The notes beneath the pieces were generated by a model. It saw only the letters and a program-made list of their open reading frames with translations, made no database searches and had not been told where the DNA came from. A program made the position numbers and the translations under genes. From an uncultured Mycolicibacterium sp. (GTDB lineage: Bacteria > Actinomycetota > Actinomycetes > Mycobacteriales > Mycobacteriaceae), in assembly GCA_945957405.1 (NCBI GenBank), contig CAMFLL010000008.1, forward strand, positions 1-47,568: 47,568 nucleotides of DNA, given 5' to 3'. Below, piece by piece: positions 674 to 16,384 of this stretch (positions are counted from its first letter, which is position 1; each line of letters starts with the position of its first letter).

Positions 674-1462
674 TCAGTTCAGCCGTCCGGAAGCCTGGCC
701 GAAGTTCGCGGTCAGCTGGGTCGCCGCATGTCGAAGCTTCGGGATTGCGGCATCGATGACATCCTCGGTCATCCTGCCAGCGGGACCTGATATTGAAACC
801 GCGCCGAGAACGGTCGAGTCAGGAATCGCGACTGCTACGCAGCGGACGCCGACCTCCTGCTCCTCTTCGTCCGTCGCGTATCCACGTCGTCGGACCGCCC
901 TGAGTTCGCGCTTCAGCGTCGGCAGTGATGTGATGGTGTTCTGCGTCTGTGACGCCATGGCGCTTGGCGCGAACATGACATCGATAGTGTCGTCAGGCAA
1001 CTCGGCCAGTATCGCCTTTCCGACCGCGGTGGCATGAGCGGCGGCACGTCGTCCGGTTTCGGTGAACATCCGCATTGAGTGCCGGCCGGGTGCTTGGGCG
1101 ACGTAAACCACCTCATGACCCTCCAAGACGGCAAAATTCGCGCTTTCCTCGACTTCGTCCACTAGCTGGCGCAATACAGGCCCAGCCCAGAGTCCCAAAA
1201 CGGAAGTTGCACTGCTGCCGAGCGCGGACAGCTTGGGCCCCAGTACGTACTGACGAGAGGAAACCTGACGTGCGTAGCCAAGGTCGACGATGGTGCGCAT
1301 CAATCGGTGGACAGTGGGCGGTGCCATTCCGGAGAGTCTGCCGAGTTCGGTAACCCCCATGACGCCATTGGCTTCGGACATAAGCTCGAGTAGGGCAAAG
1401 GCGCGGACAACCGACTGCACGCGGTCTCGGGAGCGGTCGTCGTCTGCCAAGGTCATCTCCAT
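674..1462 (-). CDS. IclR-family transcriptional regulator
   Basis: A protein of about 262 residues with the standard two-part IclR layout. The N-terminal winged helix-turn-helix reads RVQSVVRAFALLELM, then LSGMAPPTVHRLMRTI. The C-terminal effector domain contains RRAAAHATAVGKAILAELP and a late VRCVAVAIPD. The ORF track extends to a TTG at 1576, but that extension resembles no family member. I place the start at ATG 1462, with ATG 1456 as the alternative; neither has a strong ribosome site. A TTCCG-N5-tGGAA element lies 31 nt upstream, suggesting autoregulation. Related operators stand before the glyoxylate genes and tctC. IclR proteins often control glyoxylate or aromatic-acid genes and respond to a small carboxylic acid; the ligand here is unknown. 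Confidence 0.9.
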   Translation of the reverse strand: MEMTLADDDRSRDRVQSVVRAFALLELMSEANGVMGVTELGRLSGMAPPTVHRLMRTIVDLGYARQVSSRQYVLGPKLSALGSSATSVLGLWAGPVLRQLVDEVEESANFAVLEGHEVVYVAQAPGRHSMRMFTETGRRAAAHATAVGKAILAELPDDTIDVMFAPSAMASQTQNTITSLPTLKRELRAVRRRGYATDEEEQEVGVRCVAVAIPDSTVLGAVSISGPAGRMTEDVIDAAIPKLRHAATQLTANFGQASGRLN

Positions 1463-1492
1463 CCATCGATGACGGAACGTGCCAAGCGCATA

Positions 1493-1507
1493 TTCCGTGA
1501 TGTGGAA
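1493..1507. promoter_or_regulatory. Putative IclR autoregulatory half-site
   Basis: TTCCG-TGATG-tGGAA is one mismatch from the TTCCG-N5-CGGAA unit found in the three composite operators of this window. It lies 31 nt upstream of the iclR start at 1462. A further CGGAA at 1473-1477 lies between it and the gene. The function is inferred from position. Confidence 0.4.
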
Positions 1508-1791
1508 GTCTACCGTCGCTAGAGCGGCAGGAGATATCGACCGCGGAGTGTCGGTAACGGCGGGGGAACTGATCAATCTGGGTGAGCTATGCGCAATCGT
1601 GCGCTGTGAAATGCCGATACTCCGGCGCAGTTTGGGCGCAGATATTGGTTCGGGGATCGGCGGTACTCGTGGTTACCTGGCCGGGGCCGACGGGAACGCT
1701 AAGGCAAGCCATGGCTGATCGCGTCGCGACCATTTCGGATTGTGCGAATGTCGAAGCCCACAGCTCTGAGGGCTTCGACAGACCTTCGACA
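1508..1791. other. Intergenic region between iclR and the aldo/keto reductase gene
   Basis: Apart from the operator-like element at 1493-1507, I see no supported gene, strong hairpin or repeat between the iclR start and the aldo/keto reductase stop. The short ORFs listed here have no recognisable protein features and lack convincing ribosome sites. Confidence 0.5.
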
Positions 1792-2793
1792 TCACACCGG
1801 CTTGGTTGGCGCCTCGACTCCGACTGCGTGTGGTCGAGGCGACCGATGACCGACCACACGACTGGCGATTGGTGCCAGCTCCGCCAGTAGGTCGGTGGTC
1901 AACTGCAGTTCGAGGGCTTTCAGATTGCCTAAGAGGTGTGATACCCGGCGAGTGCCAGGTATCGGCACCACATCAGATCCTTGTGACAACACCCACGCCA
2001 GCGCCACCTGCCCAGGGCCGACGCCGAGCTGTGCCGCAATTCGTGAAACTTCCTGCACCAATTGACTATTCGCGTCGAATGCCTCCGCGACGTACCGCGG
2101 ATGGTTCTTCAAGCGTTCGGGTACGTCAGTGGGACGCCCAAACGTGCCGGTGAGCAACCCGCGTCCCAGCGGTGAATACGGCACGATGCCTATTCCCAGC
2201 TCACGCGCGACGGGGAGTACCTCTACCTCGATATCGCGACTGAACAGCGACCACTCCGTCTGGATTGCAACGATCGGACTTACAGCGTGTGCCCTGCGGA
2301 TGGTCCGTGGTCCCGCTTCGGATAGCCCCAGGTATCTCACTTTGCCGGCCTGGACCAGCTCCGCCATCGCACCTACGGTGTCCTCGATTGGTACTTCGGG
2401 ATCGACGCGGTGGAGGTAGTACAGGTCGATGGTTTCGACCCCAAGCCGTTCTAACGAGGCGTTTGCGGCACTATGCACATACTCAGGTCGGCCGTTGAAT
2501 TCCGCCTCACCCGGTGCACGTCCTAGGTTGTTGCCGAACTTCGTTGCCAGCACCACCTCCTCGCGATGCCTGCGGACAAAAGTCCCGACTACTTGCTCAC
2601 TGTTGTACGGTCCGTAGCTGTCGGCTGTATCGAAAAGCGTGACACCGGCGTCGAATGCCGCCTCTAGAACATCATTCGCTTCGGTGGGATCGTCGACGTC
2701 GGTGGCAAACCGTATGCCCATGCAACCAAGACCGACGGCCGATACCACCGGCCCCTCGTCGCCCAGCTTTCGGGTGGGCATCGCAATGCTCAT
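1792..2793 (-). CDS. Aldo/keto reductase
   Basis: 333 residues, the normal length for a single-domain NADP(H) aldo/keto reductase. The catalytic tetrad is visible: Asp55 and Tyr60 in FDTADSYG, Lys85 in LATKFGN and His128 in YYLHRVDP. The C-terminal cofactor segment PIPGTRRVSHLLGN is also typical. The start at ATG 2793 is supported by AGAGAGG five bases upstream. The likely reaction is reduction of an aldehyde or ketone to an alcohol, or the reverse; the substrate cannot be read from sequence. The gene diverges from malate synthase across a 164-bp spacer containing an IclR-type operator about 115 nt from this start, so both may be controlled together. Confidence 0.9.
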   Translation of the reverse strand: MSIAMPTRKLGDEGPVVSAVGLGCMGIRFATDVDDPTEANDVLEAAFDAGVTLFDTADSYGPYNSEQVVGTFVRRHREEVVLATKFGNNLGRAPGEAEFNGRPEYVHSAANASLERLGVETIDLYYLHRVDPEVPIEDTVGAMAELVQAGKVRYLGLSEAGPRTIRRAHAVSPIVAIQTEWSLFSRDIEVEVLPVARELGIGIVPYSPLGRGLLTGTFGRPTDVPERLKNHPRYVAEAFDANSQLVQEVSRIAAQLGVGPGQVALAWVLSQGSDVVPIPGTRRVSHLLGNLKALELQLTTDLLAELAPIASRVVGHRSPRPHAVGVEAPTKPV

Positions 2794-2908
2794 GTGTACC
2801 TCTCTTCACTTCTCAACCTCGTTGGTTTGCCGTCGAAGTCGGCAACCGCACGGCTCGTGGTCAGAACGGCCCGTTGACAGCTCGGGGTATCAAGACTATA
2901 TCTGAAGA

Positions 2909-2943
2909 TTCCGCTCATCGAAATATAGTTCCGTCATACGGAA
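2909..2943 (+). promoter_or_regulatory. Putative tandem IclR operator before malate synthase
   Basis: Two TTCCG-N5-CG(G/A)AA units start 20 bp apart, at 2909 (TTCCG-CTCAT-CGAAA) and 2929 (TTCCG-TCATA-CGGAA, a perfect inverted repeat). The junction between them, CGAAATATAGTTCCG, resembles the published E. coli IclR consensus TGGAAATNATTTCCA. The block ends 14 nt before the malate synthase ATG, overlapping the region expected to hold the promoter or transcript start. It is built from the same units as the sites at 539 and 11697. Confidence 0.6.
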
Positions 2944-2957
2944 TACGAAGGGTTGAT

Positions 2958-4544
2958 ATGCCTGAATCCGCCGCTGCCATACAGGTGACCGCCCCGATGC
3001 TCCCGCGATTCGACGAGATTCTCACGCCGTGCGCTATGCAATTGATGTCGGTACTGCACAAAGCGTTTGGAGCACGGCGTCACGAATTGCTCGCCGCTCG
3101 CCGACAGCGTGTAGTCGCGATAACTGAGGGTGCAACCCTCGGATTTCTGCCCGAGACCGCCGCGATCCGCGACGATCCGACTTGGCGTGTTGCCGAGCCC
3201 GCCGCTGGACTGATCGACCGACGCGCCGAGATCACCGGGCCGACGGATCGCAAAATGACCATCAACGCTCTGAATTCGGGCGCGCGGGTATGGCTGGCTG
3301 ATCATGAGGATGCCAACACACCGTTGTGGGAAAACGTCATTGGCGGTCAGTTGAATCTGCTCGATGCCATCAACCGCAACATCGATTTCACCAATGAATT
3401 TGGGAAAAGCTATGCGCTACGGCCGGACCCGGAGCTTGCCACCATCGTCATGCGTCCCCGCGGCTGGCACCTTCCGGAAAAGCACATGCTGCTCGACGGT
3501 GAACCCACCTCCGGTAGCTTGGTCGACTTCGCGCTCTACATGGCAAACTGTGGCCAGCTGCAAATCGACCGTGGCCTCGGGCCCTACTTCTATCTGCCGA
3601 AGCTTGAATCCTATCTCGAAGCACGACTCTGGAACGACGTATTTATTCTGACCCAGGACTTTCTAGGCATACCGCAAGGCACCGTTCGTGCCACCGTGCT
3701 CATCGAAACGTACCCTGCCGCTTTCGAAATGGAGGAGATCCTCTACGAGTTGCGGGATCACTCCGCTGGGCTCAACGCCGGTCGGTGGGACTATATGTTC
3801 AGCGCCATCAAAATGTTTCGAACCCGGGGTAAGGAATTTCTTCTGCCAGACCGTAATTCCGTAACAATGACTGTGCCATTCATGCGGGCCTACACCGAGC
3901 TGCTGGTTCGCACCTGCCACAAGCGTGGCGCGCACGCGATCGGCGGCATGGCGGCGTTCATTCCCAGCAAGGACCCCGAGATCAACATGCAGGCTTATAG
4001 CAAAGTGCGATCCGATAAGAGTCGCGAAGCCGCGGACGGCTTCGACGGCTCGTGGGTGGCCCACCCGGCGATGGTCGACCTTTGTACTCAGGCGTTCGAC
4101 GAGGTGCTTGGCGAACGGCCAAATCAACTCGACCGACTTCACGATGACGTGCATGTGACGGCCGAAGAGCTGCTCGACATTGCCGCAACCCCCGGGACCG
4201 TGACCGAGGCGGGCCTGCGCAACAACATCAGTGTGGCCATCCAATATTTAGCCTCCTGGTTGCGCGGCGTCGGCGCGGTTGGCATCTTCAACATGATGGA
4301 AGATGCTGCAACCGCTGAGATTTCACGATCTCAGATCTGGCAGTGGCTACACAATGACGTTGTCTTGGACACCGGTGAGAACGTGACCAAGGCGCTGGTC
4401 GAGCGGCTGGTCGACGAAGAGATTGCTGCTCTCGGAGGGTCGCCGGATCACTACGACGAGGCCAAGTCGACATTCTTGGAGGTCGCCGTCGCCGACGATT
4501 TTGCCGACTTCCTCACTTTGCCCGCCTATGCACGGATGGCGTGA
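2958..4544 (+). CDS. Malate synthase A
   Basis: 528 residues from ATG 2958, which has AAGGG just upstream; the ORF-track extension to 2655 is not protein-like. It condenses glyoxylate with acetyl-CoA to malate. The malate synthase signature RDHSAGLNAGRWDYMF is complete at about residues 266-281, and the conserved MEDAATAEISR near the C terminus contains the expected catalytic Asp (about 449). Length and motifs place it in isoform A (plant/enterobacterial AceB type, about 530 residues), not the 720-740-residue isoform G that mycobacteria normally carry as GlcB. No isocitrate lyase gene is adjacent, so the glyoxylate need not come from the glyoxylate shunt. It probably works with the aminotransferase at the left edge. 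Confidence 0.95.
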   Translation: MPESAAAIQVTAPMLPRFDEILTPCAMQLMSVLHKAFGARRHELLAARRQRVVAITEGATLGFLPETAAIRDDPTWRVAEPAAGLIDRRAEITGPTDRKMTINALNSGARVWLADHEDANTPLWENVIGGQLNLLDAINRNIDFTNEFGKSYALRPDPELATIVMRPRGWHLPEKHMLLDGEPTSGSLVDFALYMANCGQLQIDRGLGPYFYLPKLESYLEARLWNDVFILTQDFLGIPQGTVRATVLIETYPAAFEMEEILYELRDHSAGLNAGRWDYMFSAIKMFRTRGKEFLLPDRNSVTMTVPFMRAYTELLVRTCHKRGAHAIGGMAAFIPSKDPEINMQAYSKVRSDKSREAADGFDGSWVAHPAMVDLCTQAFDEVLGERPNQLDRLHDDVHVTAEELLDIAATPGTVTEAGLRNNISVAIQYLASWLRGVGAVGIFNMMEDAATAEISRSQIWQWLHNDVVLDTGENVTKALVERLVDEEIAALGGSPDHYDEAKSTFLEVAVADDFADFLTLPAYARMA

Positions 4545-6018: not shown

Positions 6019-6822
6019 TCAGCTCATCGTGACGGATACCGTGCCGAAACCCGAGTAGGAGGCCTGCACCGTGATGGGCCCGCTTGCGTCGATCGGAGTC
6101 ACCCAGGAGCCGGTGAGCACAAACTGACCCGGCTCCAGGGAGAGTTCTTGCGTGGCGAGCGTTCTCACCAGCCAGCCCAGGAGCTCGTACGGTTGGTCGT
6201 TGCTGGGTCCTCCGGGCATCGGCCTGTCCACCCACGTCGGTTCACCGTCCAGCTCGACCGTAAGCCGGGTGGAGCTGAGGTCGATCGTGTTGGGTGGTAT
6301 CGCGTCGGACAGCGTGATTACGGCACCGGCCGCCGCCCCGTTGTCGGCGATCAGATCACCCACTGTGCTTGCCGCGGCACCGTAGCGGGAGTCGGCAATT
6401 TCGAATGCGGGAACTACGCCGGCGACCGCGCGGCGGACTTCCTCCGTGGACACATCCGCGCCGCCGAGGTGGCTGCCGATCAGCAGCCCGCATTCGGGCT
6501 CGATCTTGGGATCGACGAATGCTGACCTCGACAGTGTTGCTCCACTTGCTGATACATCGTCGGCGTAGATGCGGCCGAACACTGGCTGCGCATAGCCCAT
6601 GGCCTGCTGCGCAGATTCGGCGACCAATCCGATCTTGTAACCGACGACCCGGTCCGGCCCCAGCAATGCGGTGCTATGGCGCGTGATTTGCAACGCTCTG
6701 ATGCTGTCGAGCTCCGCCACCTGAGCGCTCGGCGGCTCGGTGACAGTCGCCGTGCGCCATGCGCTCACCAGACGCTGCGCGATCTTCTGGTTCTCGGCGT
6801 CGTCACCGGTTGTGCTGCCCAT
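6019..6822 (-). CDS. 2-keto-4-pentenoate hydratase-like protein (FAH superfamily)
   Basis: 267 residues, the usual size for the MhpD/DmpE/HpaH hydratase family. Typical segments are VVGYKIGL near residue 60, QPVFGRIYADD, the metal-binding IEPECGLLI, then FEIADSRYG and LIADNGAAAGAV. Family members add water to 2-hydroxy-penta-2,4-dienoate or related 2-oxo-enoates in meta-cleavage pathways; decarboxylases of the same fold are hard to separate. It is the last gene of a minus-strand operon with a dehydrogenase, an alcohol dehydrogenase and an aldehyde dehydrogenase. No ring-cleavage dioxygenase is present, so an aliphatic 2-oxo acid is a better guess for the substrate. The gap to the next gene upstream is about 125 bp. 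Confidence 0.85.
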   Translation of the reverse strand: MGSTTGDDAENQKIAQRLVSAWRTATVTEPPSAQVAELDSIRALQITRHSTALLGPDRVVGYKIGLVAESAQQAMGYAQPVFGRIYADDVSASGATLSRSAFVDPKIEPECGLLIGSHLGGADVSTEEVRRAVAGVVPAFEIADSRYGAAASTVGDLIADNGAAAGAVITLSDAIPPNTIDLSSTRLTVELDGEPTWVDRPMPGGPSNDQPYELLGWLVRTLATQELSLEPGQFVLTGSWVTPIDASGPITVQASYSGFGTVSVTMS

Positions 6823-6948: not shown

Positions 6949-8403
6949 CTACCAGCTCACCGCAACGTATTTGGCCTCACAGAATTCGCGCATACCGTGG
7001 TGGCTGCCCTCGCGACCGAGCCCACTGGCTTTGACGCCACCGAATGGTGCGGCAGGCTCTGAAACCAATCCACGATTGATGCCTACCATCCCGACTTCGA
7101 GTTGCTCGGATATCCGCAGTCCCCGGGCGAGGTCACCCGTCAACACGTAGGCGGCGAGGCCGACCTCGGTGTCGTTGGCCCTCTCGATGGCCTCTGCCTC
7201 TTCGCTGAATGGAAAAACAGCGGCGATCGGACCGAAGACTTCTTCCTTTGCGATGCGCGCCTCAGCGGTCACGCCGTCCAGGACTGTCGGCGTGTAGAAG
7301 TAGCCGGCATCTGAAGGTCGTCCCCCTCCGGTCACGAGGCTGGCCCCATGCTCCAGCGCGTCGGCAACCATGTCCTGAATTTTCATCAAGCTTGCCTCGT
7401 CGGCCACCGGCCCGCATTGAGTACCTGGATCGCGCGGCGGCCCGACGACAAGCGCGCTCATCCGTTGCGAAAGGCGTTGCACGAATGCGTCGCGGATACC
7501 GTCTTGCACATAAATCCTGTTCGCCGCCGTGCAGGCCTGGCCGCCGTTACGCATCTTGGCCAAGATGGTCGCTTCGACGGCGTCGTCGAGGTCGGCGTCG
7601 TCGAAAATGATCACTGGGGCGTTACCGCCCAATTCCATTGAGCAACTGATGACTTGGTCGCTGGCTTCGCGGAGCAAGATCCGGCCGACCGCCGTCGAGC
7701 CGGTGAAGGACAATTTGCGCACGCGTGGATCGTGCAGGAGCGCATCGACGACCTCGGCACTGCGTGAGGTCGGGACAACGTTGACGAGGCCGTCCGGGAC
7801 TCCCGCCTCGGCCATGAGCTCGGCGATCGCCAAGGCGGTCAGGGGAGTGGTGGGTGCGGGTTTGAGCACCACGCCGCACCCCGCGGCGAGTGCCGGGGCG
7901 ATCTTTCGAGTGGCCATGGCGGCCGGGAAGTTCCATGGAGTCACCAGGAGCGCGACTCCGATGGGCTCGTAGCGAACCAGGATCCGATGACCCGCGGCCG
8001 GCGACTCGTTGAGCTCTCCGTTATTGCGTACCGCCTCCTCGGCATACCACCGGAAGAACTCCGCGGCGTAGGCGATCTCACCGCGGGCATCCGACAGTGC
8101 CTTCCCGTTTTCGTCACAGATGAGGAGCGCCAGCTGATCGGAGCGCTCGACCATCAATTCGAAGCAGCGGTGCAGGATTTCGGCTCGCCGCCGTGGCGGG
8201 CAACCGCGCCAGTCACGCATGGCTTTCTCGGCGGCATCCACCGCGCGCACACCGTCTACAACGTCGGCGTCGGCCACCTCGGCGATTACCTGTGTGGTGG
8301 AAGGGTCGACGACGGGCATCAGCTGTCCATCTGTGCCAGGCTGCCAACGGCCGCCGATGAACAGTTCGAGCGGCGGCAACCAGTTCTGCGGTGTCGGCAT
8401 CAT
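6949..8403 (-). CDS. NAD(P)-dependent aldehyde dehydrogenase (succinate-semialdehyde dehydrogenase-like)
   Basis: The enzyme oxidises an aldehyde to its acid. Family landmarks include the cofactor segment TPWNFPAAMATRKIAPALAAGCGVVLKPA, the base-containing MELGGNAPVI and the nucleophile in GGQACTAANR. Overall similarity is highest to GabD/succinate-semialdehyde-type enzymes, but the substrate is inferred. The track extends to GTG 8460, inside the upstream gene. I prefer the double ATG at 8403/8400, which has GAGAAAG upstream and leaves a 26-bp gap after the alcohol dehydrogenase stop, giving 484 residues. The alcohol dehydrogenase immediately upstream could supply the aldehyde, a common alcohol-aldehyde-acid pairing. 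Confidence 0.93.
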   Translation of the reverse strand: MMPTPQNWLPPLELFIGGRWQPGTDGQLMPVVDPSTTQVIAEVADADVVDGVRAVDAAEKAMRDWRGCPPRRRAEILHRCFELMVERSDQLALLICDENGKALSDARGEIAYAAEFFRWYAEEAVRNNGELNESPAAGHRILVRYEPIGVALLVTPWNFPAAMATRKIAPALAAGCGVVLKPAPTTPLTALAIAELMAEAGVPDGLVNVVPTSRSAEVVDALLHDPRVRKLSFTGSTAVGRILLREASDQVISCSMELGGNAPVIIFDDADLDDAVEATILAKMRNGGQACTAANRIYVQDGIRDAFVQRLSQRMSALVVGPPRDPGTQCGPVADEASLMKIQDMVADALEHGASLVTGGGRPSDAGYFYTPTVLDGVTAEARIAKEEVFGPIAAVFPFSEEAEAIERANDTEVGLAAYVLTGDLARGLRISEQLEVGMVGINRGLVSEPAAPFGGVKASGLGREGSHHGMREFCEAKYVAVSW

Positions 8404-8428
8404 CCACACTTTCTCGAGGTTCGTCGCT

Positions 8429-9709
8429 TCAGTGGGCTTCACGCAGGGACTCACGGTCACCTTCGAGTGCGGCGTTCACAATGCGTGTGCAAGCCTCGGG
8501 GGTGAGTTCTCGCGGGTTGTTTTCGACGAGCCGGCTCGCCATCAAGGACAATTTCACGACCTCGGCGACGTCGCTGTGTTGCAGCCCCAGCTCCTGGAGC
8601 GACGTGGGAATCCCCGCGTCCGCCAGCAGGGTCGCCACGGCGTCGATGCCCAGGCGTGCGGTGTGCTCGGTGGCCGACACACCGCCGCCGCGACCGGTCT
8701 CCAGAGCGCCGAGCCTGGCTGCGATGTTGGTCATCTCCGCGATGCGGACGGGCAGATTGAACTCCATCACGTACGGGAGCAGGAGCCCGACGCCTACACC
8801 GTGCGAGGTGTGCGTCATGGCGCCCACCGGATATTGAATGGCGTGGGCTGCGGCGGTGCCCGCCGTACCAAGCGCGAGGCCGCCGTAGAGAGCGGCAACC
8901 GACATGTCTTCGCGAGCCGGTTGATGAGAGCCGTCCTGAACGGCTCGCAGCATGCTGCGGCCGATCAATTCGATGCCCTGCAGAGCGCACCGATCGGTGA
9001 GCGCACCGGCCCCCACAAACACCCGGTCCACCGACAGACCGGGTTCGACGCCGCGGCGAATTGCGGTGTAGCTCTCGACGCAGTGTGTCAGTGCGTCCGC
9101 GCCGGTGGCTGCGGTCAGACCGGCCGGGCACTCCGTGGTGAGCGTGGGGTCGACAATCGCGGTGTGCGGGATGAGATATGGACTGGAAATCCCTACCTTC
9201 ATCGGTCGTGAGGAGTCGGTCAGAACAGCGACGGGAGTCACTTCCGATCCGGTACCCGATGTCGTCGGTACCGCCACGAGAGGCACGATGGCGCCCGGCA
9301 CCCGGTTCTCCCCGTAGTAGTCGGCCGGCTTACCGCCGTGGGCCAGTAGCAGTGAGGTGACTTTGGCATGATCGATGCAGCTACCACCTCCGATGCCGAG
9401 GACCACGTCAGGCGCCGTCGACCGGGCTTCCTCAACGCAGGCCCGAATGCTTTCCGTCGGAAGTTCAGCCTGGACTTGGGTGAACGCGGTGACACGAAGA
9501 CCGCGGTCGCGCAGGCCGTCGCACAGTTCGGTGAAGATCCGCTCGCCCGCCATCCGAGTATCCGTGCACACCAGCACCGAGGAACCCAGATCACCTACCG
9601 CAGCCGGGATTCCGAGTCGCTCATGGGCACCCACCACCAATACTCGCGGTCCGCGGAGGACGCCCGAGAATCCCCGGATATCCGTCGTAGCCCCAGTTGC
9701 GGTGGTCAT
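8429..9709 (-). CDS. Iron-containing alcohol dehydrogenase
   Basis: 426 residues. The NAD-binding GIGGGSCIDHAK and TTSGTGSEVTP are characteristic of group III (iron-type) alcohol dehydrogenases. The metal ligands are visible as the Asp and His of TGADALTHCVE and the histidines of AHAIQYPVGAMTHTSHG. The family includes 4-hydroxybutyrate dehydrogenases, lactaldehyde reductases and maleylacetate reductases; the first is attractive because a succinate-semialdehyde-type enzyme follows, but this is inference. AGGAGG precedes ATG 9709. The gene overlaps the Ldh2-type gene by four bases (ATGA), so the two are probably translationally coupled. Confidence 0.93.
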   Translation of the reverse strand: MTTATGATTDIRGFSGVLRGPRVLVVGAHERLGIPAAVGDLGSSVLVCTDTRMAGERIFTELCDGLRDRGLRVTAFTQVQAELPTESIRACVEEARSTAPDVVLGIGGGSCIDHAKVTSLLLAHGGKPADYYGENRVPGAIVPLVAVPTTSGTGSEVTPVAVLTDSSRPMKVGISSPYLIPHTAIVDPTLTTECPAGLTAATGADALTHCVESYTAIRRGVEPGLSVDRVFVGAGALTDRCALQGIELIGRSMLRAVQDGSHQPAREDMSVAALYGGLALGTAGTAAAHAIQYPVGAMTHTSHGVGVGLLLPYVMEFNLPVRIAEMTNIAARLGALETGRGGGVSATEHTARLGIDAVATLLADAGIPTSLQELGLQHSDVAEVVKLSLMASRLVENNPRELTPEACTRIVNAALEGDRESLREAH

Positions 9710-10728
9710 CGCGTTGCCTCCTCGACCCCGCAGTCGAGCGGGTAGTTTGCCAGTTCATTGAGTTCGGTTAGCGTTCTCTCGGCGATTTCGAACCCATCGC
9801 GGTCAATCTGTTCTCGCCGGCGCGTCGAGCGGTCACCGGGCACGCTGACAGGGTGATCCGGATGCTGCGCCGGTGAGTCGCGGACTTCCTGCAGGTACTG
9901 GCTGACAACGTCGACAATGGCCGGGGCGCTCGTCATGCCGGCGTCGTCCAACTCCGGGCAGTCGATCACCACGAAAAGGTCACCTTTCGTGCTGTGGTGC
10001 TCGACGTCGAGTGTGCCCCTGACCGCTGTGCCCAGTGCTGTACCGGTCACCGTCGCGATGAGCACCTCGAGTGCCAGACCCAGCGCGTAGCCCTTCGGGC
10101 CGCCGAAGGGAGCGATCGACCCCTTCCTGGCGGCCGCCGCATCCGTCGTTGGCTCGCCCCTTTCGTCAAGGGCCCAGCCCTCGGGTATCGGCACCTGCCG
10201 ACGCGCATGGTCGACGACCTTGCCCATCGACACGACACCGGTAGACATGTCGATGACAAGCGGGTGCGGAGTGGCAGGGACGCCGATGGCAAGTGGATTA
10301 GTCCCCAGCATGGCCGCGCGCCCGCCCCACGGGTGGACGAGGGCTTCGCTGGTACAGGTGGCGATCACACACTGGCCGCGTAGAGCGATCCGCTCGGCAT
10401 AGGGCGCGAGCATGCCGAGATGGCTCGTCCGACGCAGGGCAGCTACGGCGATACCAGTCTGTCTTGCGCATTCGGATGCTGCCTCAAGGGCTCTGTTAGC
10501 GACGACGGGACCCAGACCATTGCAACCGTCTACGGACAAAAATGCCGAGCGGGGCCAGCGATGGCGTCCTGCTGTGGTGGGGTCGATGAGCCCGGCGCGG
10601 ATCCGGGAGATGAGCGTCGGAAGGCGCAAGAGACCGTGCGACGGATGGCCACCGAGCTCACCGAAAATTAGCAGGTCAGCCTGCGCCTGAGCGAATTCAG
10701 TTGGTGTTCCAGCGTTTTGCAACACTCG
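9706..10728 (-). CDS. Malate/L-lactate dehydrogenase family (Ldh2) oxidoreductase
   Basis: About 340 residues of the Ldh2/MDH2 fold, which oxidises a 2-hydroxy acid (malate, lactate, sulfolactate or ureidoglycolate) to the keto acid with NAD(P). The catalytic-site segment GGHPSHGLLRLP, the TSHLGMLAPYAE motif and GTNPLAIGVP are all present. The start is a problem. The first usable codons are GTG 10728 or TTG 10725, yet the open frame continues upstream with VAEARALAIRVLQNAG, which matches the normal N-terminal helix of the family and has no ATG, GTG or TTG before the upstream stop. Either a rare codon is used or the protein lacks its first helix. It heads the minus-strand operon and diverges from a GntR gene. 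Confidence 0.88.
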   Translation of the reverse strand, partial: RVLQNAGTPTEFAQAQADLLIFGELGGHPSHGLLRLPTLISRIRAGLIDPTTAGRHRWPRSAFLSVDGCNGLGPVVANRALEAASECARQTGIAVAALRRTSHLGMLAPYAERIALRGQCVIATCTSEALVHPWGGRAAMLGTNPLAIGVPATPHPLVIDMSTGVVSMGKVVDHARRQVPIPEGWALDERGEPTTDAAAARKGSIAPFGGPKGYALGLALEVLIATVTGTALGTAVRGTLDVEHHSTKGDLFVVIDCPELDDAGMTSAPAIVDVVSQYLQEVRDSPAQHPDHPVSVPGDRSTRRREQIDRDGFEIAERTLTELNELANYPLDCGVEEATR

Positions 10729-10755
10729 GATCGCGAGTGCCCGCGCCTCTGCGAC

Positions 10756-10765
10756 TTGTATACGA
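10756..10765. promoter_or_regulatory. Putative GntR/FCD operator between the Ldh2 operon and gntR
   Basis: TTGTATACGA is a one-mismatch inverted repeat (TTGTATACAA), a size and type often bound by GntR proteins of the FCD branch. It lies in the divergent spacer between the Ldh2-type gene and the gntR gene at 10846, so one site could control both directions. A related AAATACGATAT occurs about 30 bp further on. Binding is inferred from position and form only. Confidence 0.35.
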
Positions 10766-10845
10766 GTGATGAGCCCTCCCGGATCAAATACGATATAATT
10801 GCCCAGTCTGATGCCCGATTCTGCTGTCTGTCAAGGGGACTCGAT

Positions 10846-11550
10846 ATGGAACTGCCGCCCGAACGCCGCACGGGGAAGGTGTCAGCAGCCGAAGCTGTGG
10901 TGTCACTCGCTGAGCTTCCGACAGCGGACGGCGTTTATCGCGAACTGCTCAGTCGCTTGGTCAACCGGACAATTGCACCCGGGGACAAGATCAGCATCGA
11001 CGGAACCAGCCGCGAATTGGGCGTGTCGCAGACCCCTATCCGCGAAGCGCTCGTGCGGCTCGCCTCGGAGCGTATGGTGACCCGCGTCCACTTATCCGGT
11101 TTCCGAGCCGCTCCGTTGCTGACCAGCGAAGAGTTCGAGAAACTCTTCGAGATGAGACTGCTCGTCGAACCATACCTCGCCGAACTTGCAGCCACCCGGC
11201 ACACAGTTGAACAGGCCGAACGGATGAATGAGCTGGTCGAACAAATGCGCCTGCTCGGAGCGAAGATAGGCCGCACCACCTACGGCGAGTTTGCCAGTGA
11301 GGACGCGTGGCTGCACGATCTCATCGCCGAGGCCGCGGACAGCCCGCCATTGCGAAACTCGCTGTTACAACTGCACGCGCACGTCCATGTGTTCCGCCTG
11401 CGCTATGACGCGCGCGTACCACTCGATGCCCTGGATGAGCATGACGACGTGCTCTCGGCGATCGTCGAACGCCGGCCGACCGCTGCATCTGGAGCTATGC
11501 GAGAGCATCTGCGGGCATCACGTGCGCGGTTGTCGAAGGCGTTTGACTGA
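10846..11550 (+). CDS. GntR-family regulator, FCD branch
   Basis: 234 residues from ATG 10846, preceded by AAGGGGAC; the ORF-track start at 10717 is too far upstream. The N-terminal winged helix contains GDKISIDGTSRELGVSQTPIREALVRLASERMV. The C-terminal all-helical FCD domain includes FEMRLLVEPYLAELAA, ASEDAWLHDLIAEAADS and a final HDDVLSAI region, carrying the usual metal-ligand pattern (Asp/His near D...H and later His residues). FCD regulators bind small organic acids and commonly repress neighbouring catabolic genes. It lies between the divergent dehydrogenase operon and the tctCBA operon and probably controls one or both. The operator candidate at 10756 supports control of the divergent side. 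Confidence 0.92.
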   Translation: MELPPERRTGKVSAAEAVVSLAELPTADGVYRELLSRLVNRTIAPGDKISIDGTSRELGVSQTPIREALVRLASERMVTRVHLSGFRAAPLLTSEEFEKLFEMRLLVEPYLAELAATRHTVEQAERMNELVEQMRLLGAKIGRTTYGEFASEDAWLHDLIAEAADSPPLRNSLLQLHAHVHVFRLRYDARVPLDALDEHDDVLSAIVERRPTAASGAMREHLRASRARLSKAFD

Positions 11551-11696: not shown

Positions 11697-11722
11697 CGGA
11701 ATACAAATTCCGCATTGCGTAA
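11697..11722 (+). promoter_or_regulatory. Putative IclR composite operator before tctC
   Basis: A perfect inverted repeat CGGAAT-N4-ATTCCG (11697-11712) is followed by CATTG-CGTAA, which completes a near-perfect CGGAA-type unit read on the other strand (TTaCG-N5-CGGAA). It ends 67 nt before the tctC ATG. The copy before the aminotransferase gene has the same orientation and nearly the same spacing (64 nt). This links tctCBA to the IclR regulator 10 kb away. Confidence 0.6.
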
Positions 11723-11789
11723 CAAGCTCGATAGCTGGGACCGCGACAGCGGTCCTGTTTCAGTCACAAGACGTGGAGAGGTCAAAGCA

Positions 11790-12818
11790 ATGAAGCTTTG
11801 CGGCAGGACCACAGGTCTACCGCGCGCCCGCTCGACTCGGATACTCGTGGCGGTCGCCTCAGTCGTTGCATTTGCGCTCGCCGCGTGCGCTCCGACTTCG
11901 ACCGGCGGGAATTCCGGGCAGGCTAGTGATGCAGCATGGGAGCCAACCCGACCGGTGACGTTTGTCGTAGCGACCGGTGTCGGCGGCGGAGGAGATCTGT
12001 TCGGCCGGGCAGCAGCCCAAGGCATCAGCACAGCGGACCCAAAGGCGAAGATCGCAGTCGAAAATCACACCGGCGGTGACGAAGTCGTCGGTGTCAGCTA
12101 CGCGCTGTCGCACAAAGACGATCCGTACTACATGTTCGTCGCCAACAGCTCACTATTGCTCCAGCCCTACAGCATCAAGCCGCCGCCGGACTATTCGTGG
12201 GAGAGCTTCACACCCGTGGCTGAACTGGCCGAAGACCAGCAGGTACTCGTGGTACCGGCGAACTCGCCGTACAACAGCCTCACAGATCTGCTCGACGCGG
12301 CGAAGAACCAGAAGCTGCGAATCGCCGTGACCTCTGCGACAGGCACCGACAACGCAGTGGCACGACTGCTGGAGAAGAACCAGAACGTCGAGTTCCAGCA
12401 TGTGATTCTCGAATCTGGGGCGTCCGGAGTAGCAGGTATGTTGGCCGGCAACGTCGACTTCTCGATCCTGAATCCGTCCGAGGCCAAAGGTCAGATCGAC
12501 GCCAAAACCCTACGGCCCCTGGCAGTCTTCTCCGATAAGCGGTACGACGCCGGCACCGGGCTGGAGAACATCCCGACCGCCAAGGAACAAGGTGTGGATG
12601 TGGTCTTCGTTCAATTTCGTGGTCTGATGGCGCCGGGCAAGATCACCGACCAGCAGCTCGCTTACTGGGCCAAGGTCTCCGAAGACTGGACCAAGACTCA
12701 GGACTACCAGGACTACATCAAGAACAACTCGCTGCAGCCAGCTTTCCGCACCGGTTCGGAATTCGCGGATCTGCTGAAGTCGCAGTCGGATACGTTCAAG
12801 GAGACGTTCAGTGACTGA
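11790..12818 (+). CDS. tctC: Tripartite tricarboxylate transporter substrate-binding protein
   Basis: 342 residues from ATG 11790, which has GGAGAGG upstream. A lipoprotein signal is clear: positively charged start, hydrophobic core LVAVASVVAFALAAC with the lipobox cysteine, then a Ser/Gly-rich linker. The mature part shows the TctC/Bug pattern RPVTFVVATGVGGGGDLFGRAAAQ, later NVDFSILNPSEAKGQ, with AVFSDKRY and a C-terminal substrate lobe. It captures an organic acid outside the membrane and delivers it to TctAB. It overlaps the tctB start by eight bases, so the three genes form one operon. The carboxylate bound cannot be predicted. The composite IclR-type operator 67 nt upstream suggests induction together with glyoxylate genes. 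Confidence 0.93.
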   Translation: MKLCGRTTGLPRARSTRILVAVASVVAFALAACAPTSTGGNSGQASDAAWEPTRPVTFVVATGVGGGGDLFGRAAAQGISTADPKAKIAVENHTGGDEVVGVSYALSHKDDPYYMFVANSSLLLQPYSIKPPPDYSWESFTPVAELAEDQQVLVVPANSPYNSLTDLLDAAKNQKLRIAVTSATGTDNAVARLLEKNQNVEFQHVILESGASGVAGMLAGNVDFSILNPSEAKGQIDAKTLRPLAVFSDKRYDAGTGLENIPTAKEQGVDVVFVQFRGLMAPGKITDQQLAYWAKVSEDWTKTQDYQDYIKNNSLQPAFRTGSEFADLLKSQSDTFKETFSD

Positions 12819-13410
12819 CCCGTCAGCCGATGCGTCGGCGGCCATCCGGGAACGCGAACCGCGTTTCCGGCGTGGCTTGCCGTCGGTTGTCACGGGCGAT
12901 CGAATCTTTGCCGTCGGGCTGCTGATCGTCGGTGTGATCGCCGTGGTGCAGGGGCTCGGCTACGGCTTCATCCGGCCCGACGGAATCATCGGACCTGGCT
13001 TCACGCCGATTGTCTTCGGAGTGATCTTATTGTTCTGCACGGTGATGGTTCTGCTGCGCTCGTTCCGTGATCCGGGCGAGAAGCCGGTCTCACTGATCGA
13101 GTCCCTGGCGGAGCAGACCATGCTTGAGGCCCAGGATGATGTGGCGCCAACCGACCGTGCTGGTAGCGAGCGGTCGGCGCTGTTAGTCGCCGTCGGTATC
13201 GGCATCGCGTTGTGGCTAGCAGGGTGGATCGGACTTATCCCCGCACTATCCGTCCTGGTCTTCGCGATCCTACGATGGATCGAGAAAGAGTCCTGGATCA
13301 AGTCGATCCTGATCTCGCTGCTTCTCGGCGTCGCGGCGTGGCTCATCTTCACTTACTTCCTGCAGGTGCCGTTGGATTTCGGCGTCATCAGCCTCTACTG
13401 GCACATCTGA
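12811..13410 (+). CDS. tctB: Tripartite tricarboxylate transporter small membrane subunit
   Basis: 199 residues starting at GTG 12811 inside the end of tctC. About four hydrophobic segments are visible: GLLIVGVIAVVQGLGYGF, TPIVFGVILLFCTVMVLL, SALLVAVGIGIALWLAGWIGLIPALSVLVFAIL, and SILISLLLGVAAWLIFTYFL. The pattern VPLDFG near the C terminus recurs in TctB proteins. It is the poorly conserved small subunit that pairs with TctA in the membrane. Assignment rests on topology, the VPL motif and its place between tctC and tctA. Confidence 0.88.
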   Translation: MTDPSADASAAIREREPRFRRGLPSVVTGDRIFAVGLLIVGVIAVVQGLGYGFIRPDGIIGPGFTPIVFGVILLFCTVMVLLRSFRDPGEKPVSLIESLAEQTMLEAQDDVAPTDRAGSERSALLVAVGIGIALWLAGWIGLIPALSVLVFAILRWIEKESWIKSILISLLLGVAAWLIFTYFLQVPLDFGVISLYWHI

Positions 13411-13465: not shown

Positions 13466-15148
13466 ATGGAACTGTTGACCCATATCGCCACCGGTTTTGG
13501 CGACGCATTCACGCCGCTGAACCTCTTTTACTGTTTCCTCGGCGTCATCATGGGGACCCTGGTCGGCATCCTGCCGGGCCTAGGGCCGGCAACCGCGATC
13601 GCACTGCTGCTTCCGCTCACCCTCGGGCTGCAGCCGTTGCCCGCCCTGATCATGCTGGCCGGGATCTACTACGGCAGTATGCACGGCGGTATCATCACCG
13701 CGGTTCTAATTGCCACCCCGGGTGAATCCTCGGCAGTAGTCACGGTAATGGATGGCCACACACTAGCCCGAATGGGTAGGGCGGGGCCAGTTTTGGCGAT
13801 GAGCGCGCTGGCCAGCTTCTTAGCCGGCACGCTCACCATTCCGTTTGTGATGATATTCGTGCAGGTGCTCGGCACGATCAGCCTGCACTTCGGGCCGCCG
13901 GAGATCACGGTGATCATCCTGTTCGGCCTTGTCGGTGTCGCCGGGTTCGTCGGCAAGAATCGCTTCAAGGGTTACGCCATGGCAGCGGCCGGACTCCTGA
14001 TTGCCGCCGTTGGGCTAGATACCGGCACCGGCACACCGCGTTTCACGTTCGGTATCACCGATATGTATGGCGGGATCGATTTCCTCTACGCGGTGATCGG
14101 TCTCTTCGCGCTCGGCGAGGTCTTGCATTCGATCGGTGTCGGACAGCCCAATCCGATTCGGACCCGGCTGCGCGACATGGTGATCACGATGGACGACTGG
14201 CGGCATTCCCGGTTACCGATTCTGCGCGGGGGCTTCCTCGGCCTGTTCCTGGGTATGATGCCAGGCGCTGGGGCCACGGTCTCGTCTTTCTTGGCCTATG
14301 ACATGGAGCGAAGGATCAGCGCGCGCAAAGGCCGGGTGCTGGGTACCGGCATGATCGAAGGGGTTTGTGGGCCCCAAGCCGCTGACAATGCCGCGGTCAA
14401 CGGAGCGTTTGTACCGACGCTGTCTCTTGGTATTCCGGGTTCCGCGGCGACCGCAATCGTGCTCGGCGGCATGCTGTTACACGGCATTCAGCCGGGTCCG
14501 CTGCTGATGACCACAGAGCCTCGGCTGGTGTGGGGTCTGTTGGCGTCGTTCTACATCGGCAATCTGATGTTGGTGCTGATCAACGTGCCGCTGGCTCCGC
14601 TGTTCGCGTCGATTCTGCGCGTCAAGTACTCCTACATGTATCCGGCGATCATTGTGTTGTGTTTCATTGGGGCGTTTTCGGTCGACAACCACATGACCGG
14701 TGTGTGGCTGGCTTTCATCTTCGGAATCGTAGGTTGGTTCGCCGTCAAGTATGATTACCCTTTGGCGCCAATGATTCTCGGCGTGATCCTCGGTAGTCCT
14801 TTCGAACGTTCAATCGTTCAGAGTTCCGAGATCGGTCGCGGTAGCTTGACTGTCTATCTCCACCATCCGATCGCTATGGCGTTGCTTGCCGTCGTGGTGG
14901 CGATGGTGGTGCTCCCGACGGTGATCTCCCGACTACGACGCAGGGCAGGCAAGGCGCCGATCACCGAGCTGGTTGTCTCGCCGGATGTCGCTGCGGCGCA
15001 GTCATCGTCGATCGAGAACGAGGATGGGACCACCGAACCAAGCAAGTCTGGGGCACGTCTCCGCGGCACCGATTCGGAGCGGCCCGCCCCAACTGAGAAA
15101 GGAGATGACGCCCCGCTCACAACCAGGGGGCAGTTTGGGAAGAAATAG
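13466..15148 (+). CDS. tctA: Tripartite tricarboxylate transporter large membrane subunit
   Basis: 560 residues, slightly longer than the usual 500 because of a hydrophilic C-terminal tail of about 60 residues rich in Ser, Thr and Glu. The family signature GILPGLGPATAIALLLPLTLGLQP is intact near residue 35, followed by YYGSMHGGIITAVLIATPGESSAVVT and a second GMMPGAGATVSSFLAYDMERR half-repeat. It forms the sodium- or proton-driven channel through which the TctC-bound acid enters. It lies 55 bp after tctB with only a weak ribosome site. The charged tail is not part of the transport domain and may be specific to this group. Confidence 0.95.
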   Translation: MELLTHIATGFGDAFTPLNLFYCFLGVIMGTLVGILPGLGPATAIALLLPLTLGLQPLPALIMLAGIYYGSMHGGIITAVLIATPGESSAVVTVMDGHTLARMGRAGPVLAMSALASFLAGTLTIPFVMIFVQVLGTISLHFGPPEITVIILFGLVGVAGFVGKNRFKGYAMAAAGLLIAAVGLDTGTGTPRFTFGITDMYGGIDFLYAVIGLFALGEVLHSIGVGQPNPIRTRLRDMVITMDDWRHSRLPILRGGFLGLFLGMMPGAGATVSSFLAYDMERRISARKGRVLGTGMIEGVCGPQAADNAAVNGAFVPTLSLGIPGSAATAIVLGGMLLHGIQPGPLLMTTEPRLVWGLLASFYIGNLMLVLINVPLAPLFASILRVKYSYMYPAIIVLCFIGAFSVDNHMTGVWLAFIFGIVGWFAVKYDYPLAPMILGVILGSPFERSIVQSSEIGRGSLTVYLHHPIAMALLAVVVAMVVLPTVISRLRRRAGKAPITELVVSPDVAAAQSSSIENEDGTTEPSKSGARLRGTDSERPAPTEKGDDAPLTTRGQFGKK

Positions 15149-15214: not shown

Positions 15215-16384
15215 TTGAAGATCACCAAAATCGACACGCACATCGTGTCGGTACCACTGGCGAATCCCTGGGAGATGGGAATCGGGACCGCTTACCGGCG
15301 CGATGAGCTGCTCGTGCTGGTCCACACCGATGAAGGCCTGACCGGTCTCGGCTCGGCTTACCATGCTCATGCCGCGCAAGCAGTCAAAGGCATCATCGAC
15401 TACAAGGTGGCGCCGGTTGTCCTCGGCGAGGATCCACTTGCCATTCAGCAGATTTGGGAAAAGCTCTTCTACAGCACCGTCTACATCGGCTCCGCCGGGG
15501 TGCAGGCCCTGGCGGGCGTCGATATCGCGCTCTGGGACATTCTGGGCAAGGTCACCGGACAGCCGATCGCAACGTTGATCGGTGGCGGTGGCGTTGAGAA
15601 GATGGCGGCCTACGTCGGCTGCATGAGCATGGGCCACAAACCACTGCCCGACTTGCAAAAAGAGGCCCAGGGTTATGTTGCCGAGGGCTATAAGGCGATC
15701 AAGGTGCGCGGCGGCGCCGGCATCCGGACCGACCTGGAGGCGATGGCGGCCGTACGGGAAGCGGTCGGACCCGACATCGACCTGATGATCGACGTCAACG
15801 CCCGCTACAGCTGGGCCGAAGCCGTTGAGGTGTCAAAGAAGCTGCAGGCGCTCGACGCGTTCTGGCTGGAAGATCCGTTCGATTTCAGCATCCCCAACCA
15901 CCATGACGACGTGGGCAAGTTGCGCGGCTTCGGACTGACGCCCCTCGCATCTGGTGGGAACGTCTACAGCCGGTTCGACTACCGCAATCTGATCAGCAGC
16001 GGCGGCGTGGATTTCATCACGCCCGACGCGGTCAAGGCCGGTGGCATCTCCGAGTCCTTGAAGATTGCCACGTTGGCCAGCGCGTACGACGTCCAGGTGG
16101 CGTTGCACACGCTCAACGGACTGGGGCAGGTCGCCAACGTGCACTTGGCTGCGGGTATCCCGGCCCACGTACGTGGTTACGTCGAGTGGGATCCGACGTC
16201 GCCCAACGAAATGCGTGACCAGATGCTCAAGACGCCGATCAAGGTCGAGAACGGCGATCTGTACGTTCCGACCGGACCGGGCTTGGGCACTGAGCTCGAC
16301 ATGGACTTCGTCAAGGAGTACGAGCTCAAAGAAGGTGGCGTCGAGATCGCGGGCAAGCCGCGCGGGCGTCGCTGGAACAGCTGA
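15215..16384 (+). CDS. Mandelate racemase/muconate lactonizing family enzyme (enolase superfamily)
   Basis: 389 residues from TTG 15215, chosen because AAGGAG lies at good spacing; a nearer ATG is out of frame. The N-terminal capping domain is followed by a barrel whose spacing fits mandelate racemase closely. Lys163 (AIKVR), Asp193 (MIDVN), Glu219 (WLEDP), Asp271 (TPDAVK), His298 (ALHTL) and Glu325 (YVEWD) are all present. The Asp-His pair suggests proton abstraction next to a carboxylate, i.e. dehydration or racemisation of a sugar acid or hydroxy acid. The third metal ligand, normally the Glu of GEN, is Gly248 in SGGN, so metal binding may differ. The gene follows tctCBA by 66 bp and probably acts on the imported acid. 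Confidence 0.9.
   Translation: MKITKIDTHIVSVPLANPWEMGIGTAYRRDELLVLVHTDEGLTGLGSAYHAHAAQAVKGIIDYKVAPVVLGEDPLAIQQIWEKLFYSTVYIGSAGVQALAGVDIALWDILGKVTGQPIATLIGGGGVEKMAAYVGCMSMGHKPLPDLQKEAQGYVAEGYKAIKVRGGAGIRTDLEAMAAVREAVGPDIDLMIDVNARYSWAEAVEVSKKLQALDAFWLEDPFDFSIPNHHDDVGKLRGFGLTPLASGGNVYSRFDYRNLISSGGVDFITPDAVKAGGISESLKIATLASAYDVQVALHTLNGLGQVANVHLAAGIPAHVRGYVEWDPTSPNEMRDQMLKTPIKVENGDLYVPTGPGLGTELDMDFVKEYELKEGGVEIAGKPRGRRWNS

Follow-up and report, generated by a model that had tools for sequence, protein, structure and literature searches.

A conserved enolase-superfamily clade with glycine at the position of the third metal ligand

Gene content of the locus

The window analysed here, a stretch of 47,568 nucleotides from an uncultured Mycolicibacterium sp. 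(assembly GCA_945957405.1, contig CAMFLL010000008.1), encodes a 389-residue protein of the enolase superfamily at positions 15215-16384, and the genes and active-site codons discussed below are collected in Table 1. The reading frame starts with TTG, a few bases 3' to the good ribosome-binding site AAGGAGA, and is covered over its full length by the Pfam models of the MR/MLE enolase superfamily (MR_MLE_N, 6.5e-21; MR_MLE_C, 2.8e-58). Both of the expected domains, an N-terminal capping domain and a C-terminal barrel domain, were observed in the Pfam matches, in the fold matches and in an AlphaFold2 model, which is a confident prediction (mean pLDDT 92.9). None of the named NCBIfam equivalogs for galactonate, arabinonate, mannonate and talarate/galactarate dehydratase scored above its curated cut-off with this protein, the best being arabinonate dehydratase (201.8 bits, cut-off 650), with galactonate dehydratase at 189.6 bits (cut-off 311). 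The glucarate dehydratase model TIGR03247 reached 43 bits against a cut-off of 828.7, and the protein has SGGN and no ATNM motif, which places it outside that subgroup. The host genome carries at least 17 matches to MR_MLE_C, and two paralogues of glucarate-dehydratase type in the same genome (L002 and L004, on contigs C214 and C308) have ATNM at the third-ligand stretch.

Table 1. Genes and active-site codons of the window (ORF, open reading frame; GEN relatives, related enzymes bearing the third-ligand Glu)
Feature	Position	Strand	Basis or remark
BhcA-like class-V aminotransferase, N-terminal half, cut by contig end	1..474	-	C-terminal half at the end of contig C409
IclR-family regulator, best model BhcR	674..1576	-	below BhcR cut-off
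Malate synthase A, domain from about residue 122 of the ORF	2655..4544	+	TIGR01344, 736.7 bits, above cut-off 594.5
2-oxo-hept-4-ene-1,7-dioate hydratase-like protein	6019..6822	-	TIGR02312, 7.7e-32, below cut-off
Aldehyde dehydrogenase, nearest to succinate-semialdehyde dehydrogenases	6949..8460	-	annotation
Iron-type alcohol dehydrogenase	8429..9709	-	annotation
Ldh_2 family dehydrogenase (malate/sulfolactate/ureidoglycolate type)	9706..10725	-	annotation
GntR/FCD regulator, between two divergent operons	10717..11550	+	annotation
TctC solute receptor	11715..12818	+	Pfam, 1.6e-23
TctB	12811..13410	+	Pfam, 1.7e-17
TctA (tripartite tricarboxylate transporter, large membrane subunit), 66 bases 5' of the enzyme gene	13466..15148	+	Pfam, 8.8e-144
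Enolase-superfamily (MR-subgroup) protein, SGGN replacing GEN, 389 aa	15215..16384	+	ORF, Pfam, AlphaFold2, fold match
K163-V-R165, KxR motif, barrel strand 2	15701..15709	+	K163 and R165 invariant within clade
D193 (metal ligand 1) and N195	15791..15799	+	invariant within clade
E219 (metal ligand 2) and D220	15869..15874	+	position 220 is Glu in 37/37 GEN relatives
S246-G247-G248-N249	15950..15961	+	G248 occupies the expected third-ligand Glu site (alignments)
T269-P270-D271	16019..16027	+	Thr269 is Gln in 37/37 GEN relatives; D271 is half of the Asp-His dyad
H298, second half of Asp-His dyad	16106..16108	+	invariant within clade
E324, conserved Glu ending barrel strand 8	16184..16186	+	invariant within clade

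Active-site residues of the 389-residue protein

Translation placed Lys163, Arg165, Asp193, Glu219, Asp271 and His298 exactly where a sequence-only reading of this stretch had put them; the Glu325 that it also named is Trp, the Glu of the VEWD motif being Glu324. We observed the Asp-His dyad of the mandelate racemase (MR) subgroup on strands 6 and 7 (D271 and H298) and the strand-8 Glu (E324), and the K-x-K motif of strand 2 is K163-V-R165 in this protein. As for the three metal ligands, acidic or Asn, expected at the ends of strands 3, 4 and 5, D193 and E219 are present and the third position is G248, in this protein as in all members of the clade described below. That Gly248, within SGGN, replaces the Glu of the usual GEN motif had been the central claim of the earlier reading, and it held in residue-by-residue alignments with solved structures, which put Glu on the G248 column in 5 of 5 cases (3bjs, 3h12, 3ozm, 5olc and 4ggb). 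For 5olc and 4ggb a misalignment by one residue was ruled out, since the GG before the Glu is aligned too and the Glu falls exactly on G248. The spacing from E219 to G248 is 29 residues, versus 26 in MR, because of a short insertion after EDPF.

Distribution and descent of the SGGN proteins

A scan of genome contigs yielded eight orthologues from Alphaproteobacteria, Betaproteobacteria and Actinomycetota, 47-62% identical to the window protein: those of Pollutimonas (62%) and Ancylobacter (61%) and, at 47-55%, those of Micromonospora, Nonomuraea, an alphaproteobacterial MAG, Roseomonas and a single Ferrovibrio genome, which has two. All eight carry SGGN. A paralogue in the window's own genome, 38% identical to the window protein and encoded on contig C409 (L077:4378-5529, minus strand), carries it as well; in this protein the dyad Asp corresponding to D271 is Asn (TANTAK replacing TPDAVK), and His298 is kept. 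Sharing of SGGN by a clade, which the sequence-only reading had envisaged, was therefore observed in 9 of 9 orthologous members, counting the window protein, and in the C409 paralogue. Within the nine, K163, R165, D193, N195, E219, D271, H298 and E324 are invariant at 47-62% identity, and the general base pair is kept, as had been claimed.

When 60 proteins were placed in a maximum-likelihood tree, all ten SGGN rows came out together on a single branch (support 100/97, present in 100% of the sampled bootstrap trees), with the C409 paralogue on a long terminal branch and its exact position less sure. Glu occupies the G248 column in 37 of 37 related KxR enzymes, these GEN relatives being rows chosen for K-x-R plus Glu at that column; among the remaining aligned relatives, only those of the distant glucarate-dehydratase type have no acidic residue in the third-ligand stretch. 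The single SGGN branch and the Glu of the 37 relatives together show a single fixed loss: the third-ligand Glu was replaced by Gly once, and the Gly was then retained across the clade. We considered Arg165, which the sequence-only reading had also pointed out, as a further part of the oddity and rejected it: the residue is as described, but most GEN-type relatives also have K-x-R, and its presence in the 37 that bear Glu makes Arg165 ordinary.

Three positions, all at the active-site end of the barrel, switch perfectly between the clade and the 37 GEN relatives, namely E220 to D, E248 to G and Q269 to T, and the C409 paralogue has all three. A neighbouring change, A246S, also accompanies loss of the third ligand.

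By our sampling, the SGGN clade is rare but real. Searches at cut-offs of 1e-60 to 1e-95 covered about 1,990 whole genomes, drawn from the family, order and phylum of the window itself and from the orders or families to which five seed genomes belong; among the loci read, no further SGGN protein was found. Nor were the two SGGN proteins found in those genomes of the same genus that were sampled. Plasmid matches were 35-38% identical, and the two that were read have Glu at the third-ligand position. In the PDB, searched with a clade profile and a fragment query, the alignments examined contained only Glu-bearing enzymes and no SGGN protein.

The clade is under purifying selection. Nei-Gojobori dN/dS was 0.036 for the Ferrovibrio pair, 0.12, 0.19 and 0.23 for other within-clade pairs, and 0.23-0.32 for the window gene against its nearest relatives.

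Neighbouring genes vary between members of the clade. The Ancylobacter orthologue has TctCBA directly upstream, in the same arrangement as in the window. The two Ferrovibrio loci, which are two operon copies in one genome, include a sugar ABC importer, an SMP-30 lactonase, two SDRs, DUF4432 and GntR; the Roseomonas locus has most of this set, including DUF4432, the lactonase and the sugar ABC importer genes, and the locus of the alphaproteobacterial MAG has at least DUF4432 and a GntR-like gene. The alphaproteobacterial SGGN genes (L012-L015) adjoin DUF4432, a conserved protein of unknown function. Both kinds of neighbourhood, the one with TctCBA and the one with a sugar ABC importer, a lactonase and SDRs, point to sugar-acid or hydroxy-acid catabolism. 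The sets resemble oxidative sugar catabolism, in which a dehydrogenase and a lactonase are joined by an acid-sugar dehydratase, and the likeliest role predicted from them is acid-sugar or hydroxy-acid dehydratase/isomerase chemistry.

At the left border of the window, the aminotransferase gene is interrupted by the contig end. Its C-terminal half lies at the end of contig C409 (L077, 5564-6247, minus strand), and the next gene there is the SGGN paralogue. Aligned with a Pollutimonas homologue, the two halves match residues 8-176 and 179-396 and do not overlap, which makes it very probable that C409 adjoins the window contig at its left end. Such a junction would bring two SGGN enzymes, malate synthase A and the BhcR-like IclR regulator together within about 17 kb. 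The remainder of C409 contains infB- and rbfA-like genes and is a core chromosomal locus. In Pollutimonas (L009:9209-10435), the gene that comes directly after the SGGN gene encodes a BhcA-like aminotransferase, with 59% identity to the C409 half; no such aminotransferase was found beside GEN relatives within the approximately 1.5 kb of flank examined. The proximity of the aminotransferase, malate synthase A and the BhcR-like regulator suggests a pathway that may produce or consume glyoxylate.

Function of the altered site and comparison with known systems

We put at roughly 0.5 the probability of the following reading: the window protein would be a functional enzyme with an intact fold, from a small clade of the MR subgroup whose third ligand changed from Glu to Gly once, leaving a two-carboxylate metal site. 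The low dN/dS values, together with the invariance of the catalytic residues, favour an enzyme that still works, and metal is predicted still to be bound because two of its ligands, D193 and E219, are retained. Such an enzyme would most likely abstract the alpha-proton from the carboxylate of a hydroxy- or sugar-acid, in dehydratase or isomerase chemistry, through the Asp271-His298 dyad and Lys163/Arg165. Only two protein carboxylates, Asp193 and Glu219, would hold the divalent metal, and the vacant coordination position would be filled by water or substrate. Several points temper this reading. Persistence of D193 and E219 could alternatively reflect a structural or hydrogen-bonding role, the genes beside the enzyme vary within the clade, and the change of D271 to Asn in the paralogue, which indicates that the SGGN group tolerates active-site change, counts against it. 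The broader proposition, that an enzyme clade may enolise carboxylates with a metal site that is permanently two-carboxylate, or absent, seems to us to stand at about even odds.

A possible, though clearly less probable, explanation is that an ordinary three-ligand site is completed by another side chain, either Asp220, Asp223 or His229 in the loop after strand 4, or Asn249. None of the three loop residues varies among the nine orthologues, and Asp223 and His229 lie in a loop, following E219, that exceeds its counterpart in GEN relatives by about three residues. In the SGGN paralogue, however, positions 223 and 229 are Ala and Thr, so that neither residue can serve as a general replacement ligand, and D220 stands for the Glu of GEN relatives and also occurs in L005, a relative with EDP and GER that keeps the third-ligand Glu. 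Asn249 had been put forward earlier as a substitute; the two glycines that precede it could allow backbone freedom, and in the same-genome paralogues of glucarate-dehydratase type the stretch is ATNM, the Asn being the third metal ligand in D-glucarate dehydratase. Yet the same Asn follows Glu in normal GEN enzymes and so is no gained residue, which leaves that suggestion without specific support. Apart from D220 replacing Glu, sequence comparison revealed no gained Asp, Glu, His or Cys near the barrel mouth that is common to both SGGN subgroups. There thus appears to be no obvious new third ligand, on ground weaker than a structural test.

Less likely still is a metal-free enzyme, in which the enolate would be stabilised by Lys163, Arg165 and hydrogen bonds. 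Loss of one of three ligands with no obvious substitute, together with the nearby changes E220D, Q269T and A246S, is what such an enzyme might display, but Asp193 and Glu219 are present in 10 of 10 SGGN proteins, which would be unexpected had metal been lost, and a divalent metal ion is described as taking part in every known reaction of the superfamily (PMC6946804). We regard as quite improbable that the proteins are catalytically dead or non-enzymatic, with a binding or regulatory role: a pseudoenzyme would accord with the lost ligand and with the paralogue's lack of the dyad Asp, but the other catalytic residues are invariant across phyla, dN/dS is low, and the genes lie within catabolic operons with importers and dehydrogenases. 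An artefact of sequencing or assembly, or a mutation that arose recently in a single strain, might be entertained for an assembly fragmented into 627 contigs, but is refuted by the same residue at eight other loci in seven genomes and in the diverged paralogue.

The preferred reading of a working two-carboxylate enzyme bears on how the superfamily is defined and annotated. The enolase superfamily is a textbook case of diverse reactions built on one common metal-assisted enolisation step, and the three metal ligands identify its members. A conserved, selected clade with Gly in place of a ligand offers a natural test of how much of the site the chemistry needs; if the reading is true, a working enzyme could do without the three-ligand site by which the superfamily is taken to be defined. 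Annotation based on residues would miss SGGN enzymes, or mislabel them as dead or as galactonate dehydratase. Neither loss of the third ligand nor Gly at its position was found described in the open-access papers searched; subscription papers may hold such a description.

The window protein is a genuine variant, conserved across its clade, within a known superfamily. It shares with the MR subgroup (MR and the galactonate, rhamnonate and fuconate dehydratases) the two-domain fold, the strand-2 Lys, the Asp and Glu metal ligands of strands 3 and 4, the Asp-His dyad of strands 6 and 7 and the strand-8 Glu, and differs in having Gly for the third-ligand Glu and Arg for the second residue of KxK. 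The D-glucarate dehydratase subgroup resembles the SGGN clade in having no acidic third ligand, but has the ATNM motif there, whereas in the SGGN clade this position bears no side chain. The nearest solved structures include sugar-acid enzymes of the superfamily, the 3,6-anhydro-galactonate and galactarolactone cycloisomerases (5olc, 5xd7-9 and 4ggb/4hpn), of which 5olc and 4ggb differ from the window protein in keeping Glu at the third-ligand column. The closest solved structure is 3bjs, an uncharacterised enolase-superfamily protein of Polaromonas sp. JS666 (E 1.6e-93 with the clade profile; TM 0.90-0.95 and rmsd 1.6 with the model). Its KxR motif, Asp, Glu and dyad are spaced as in the window protein, yet it has kept the third-ligand Glu (AAGENHYTRF), Glu at position 220 and Gln at position 269.
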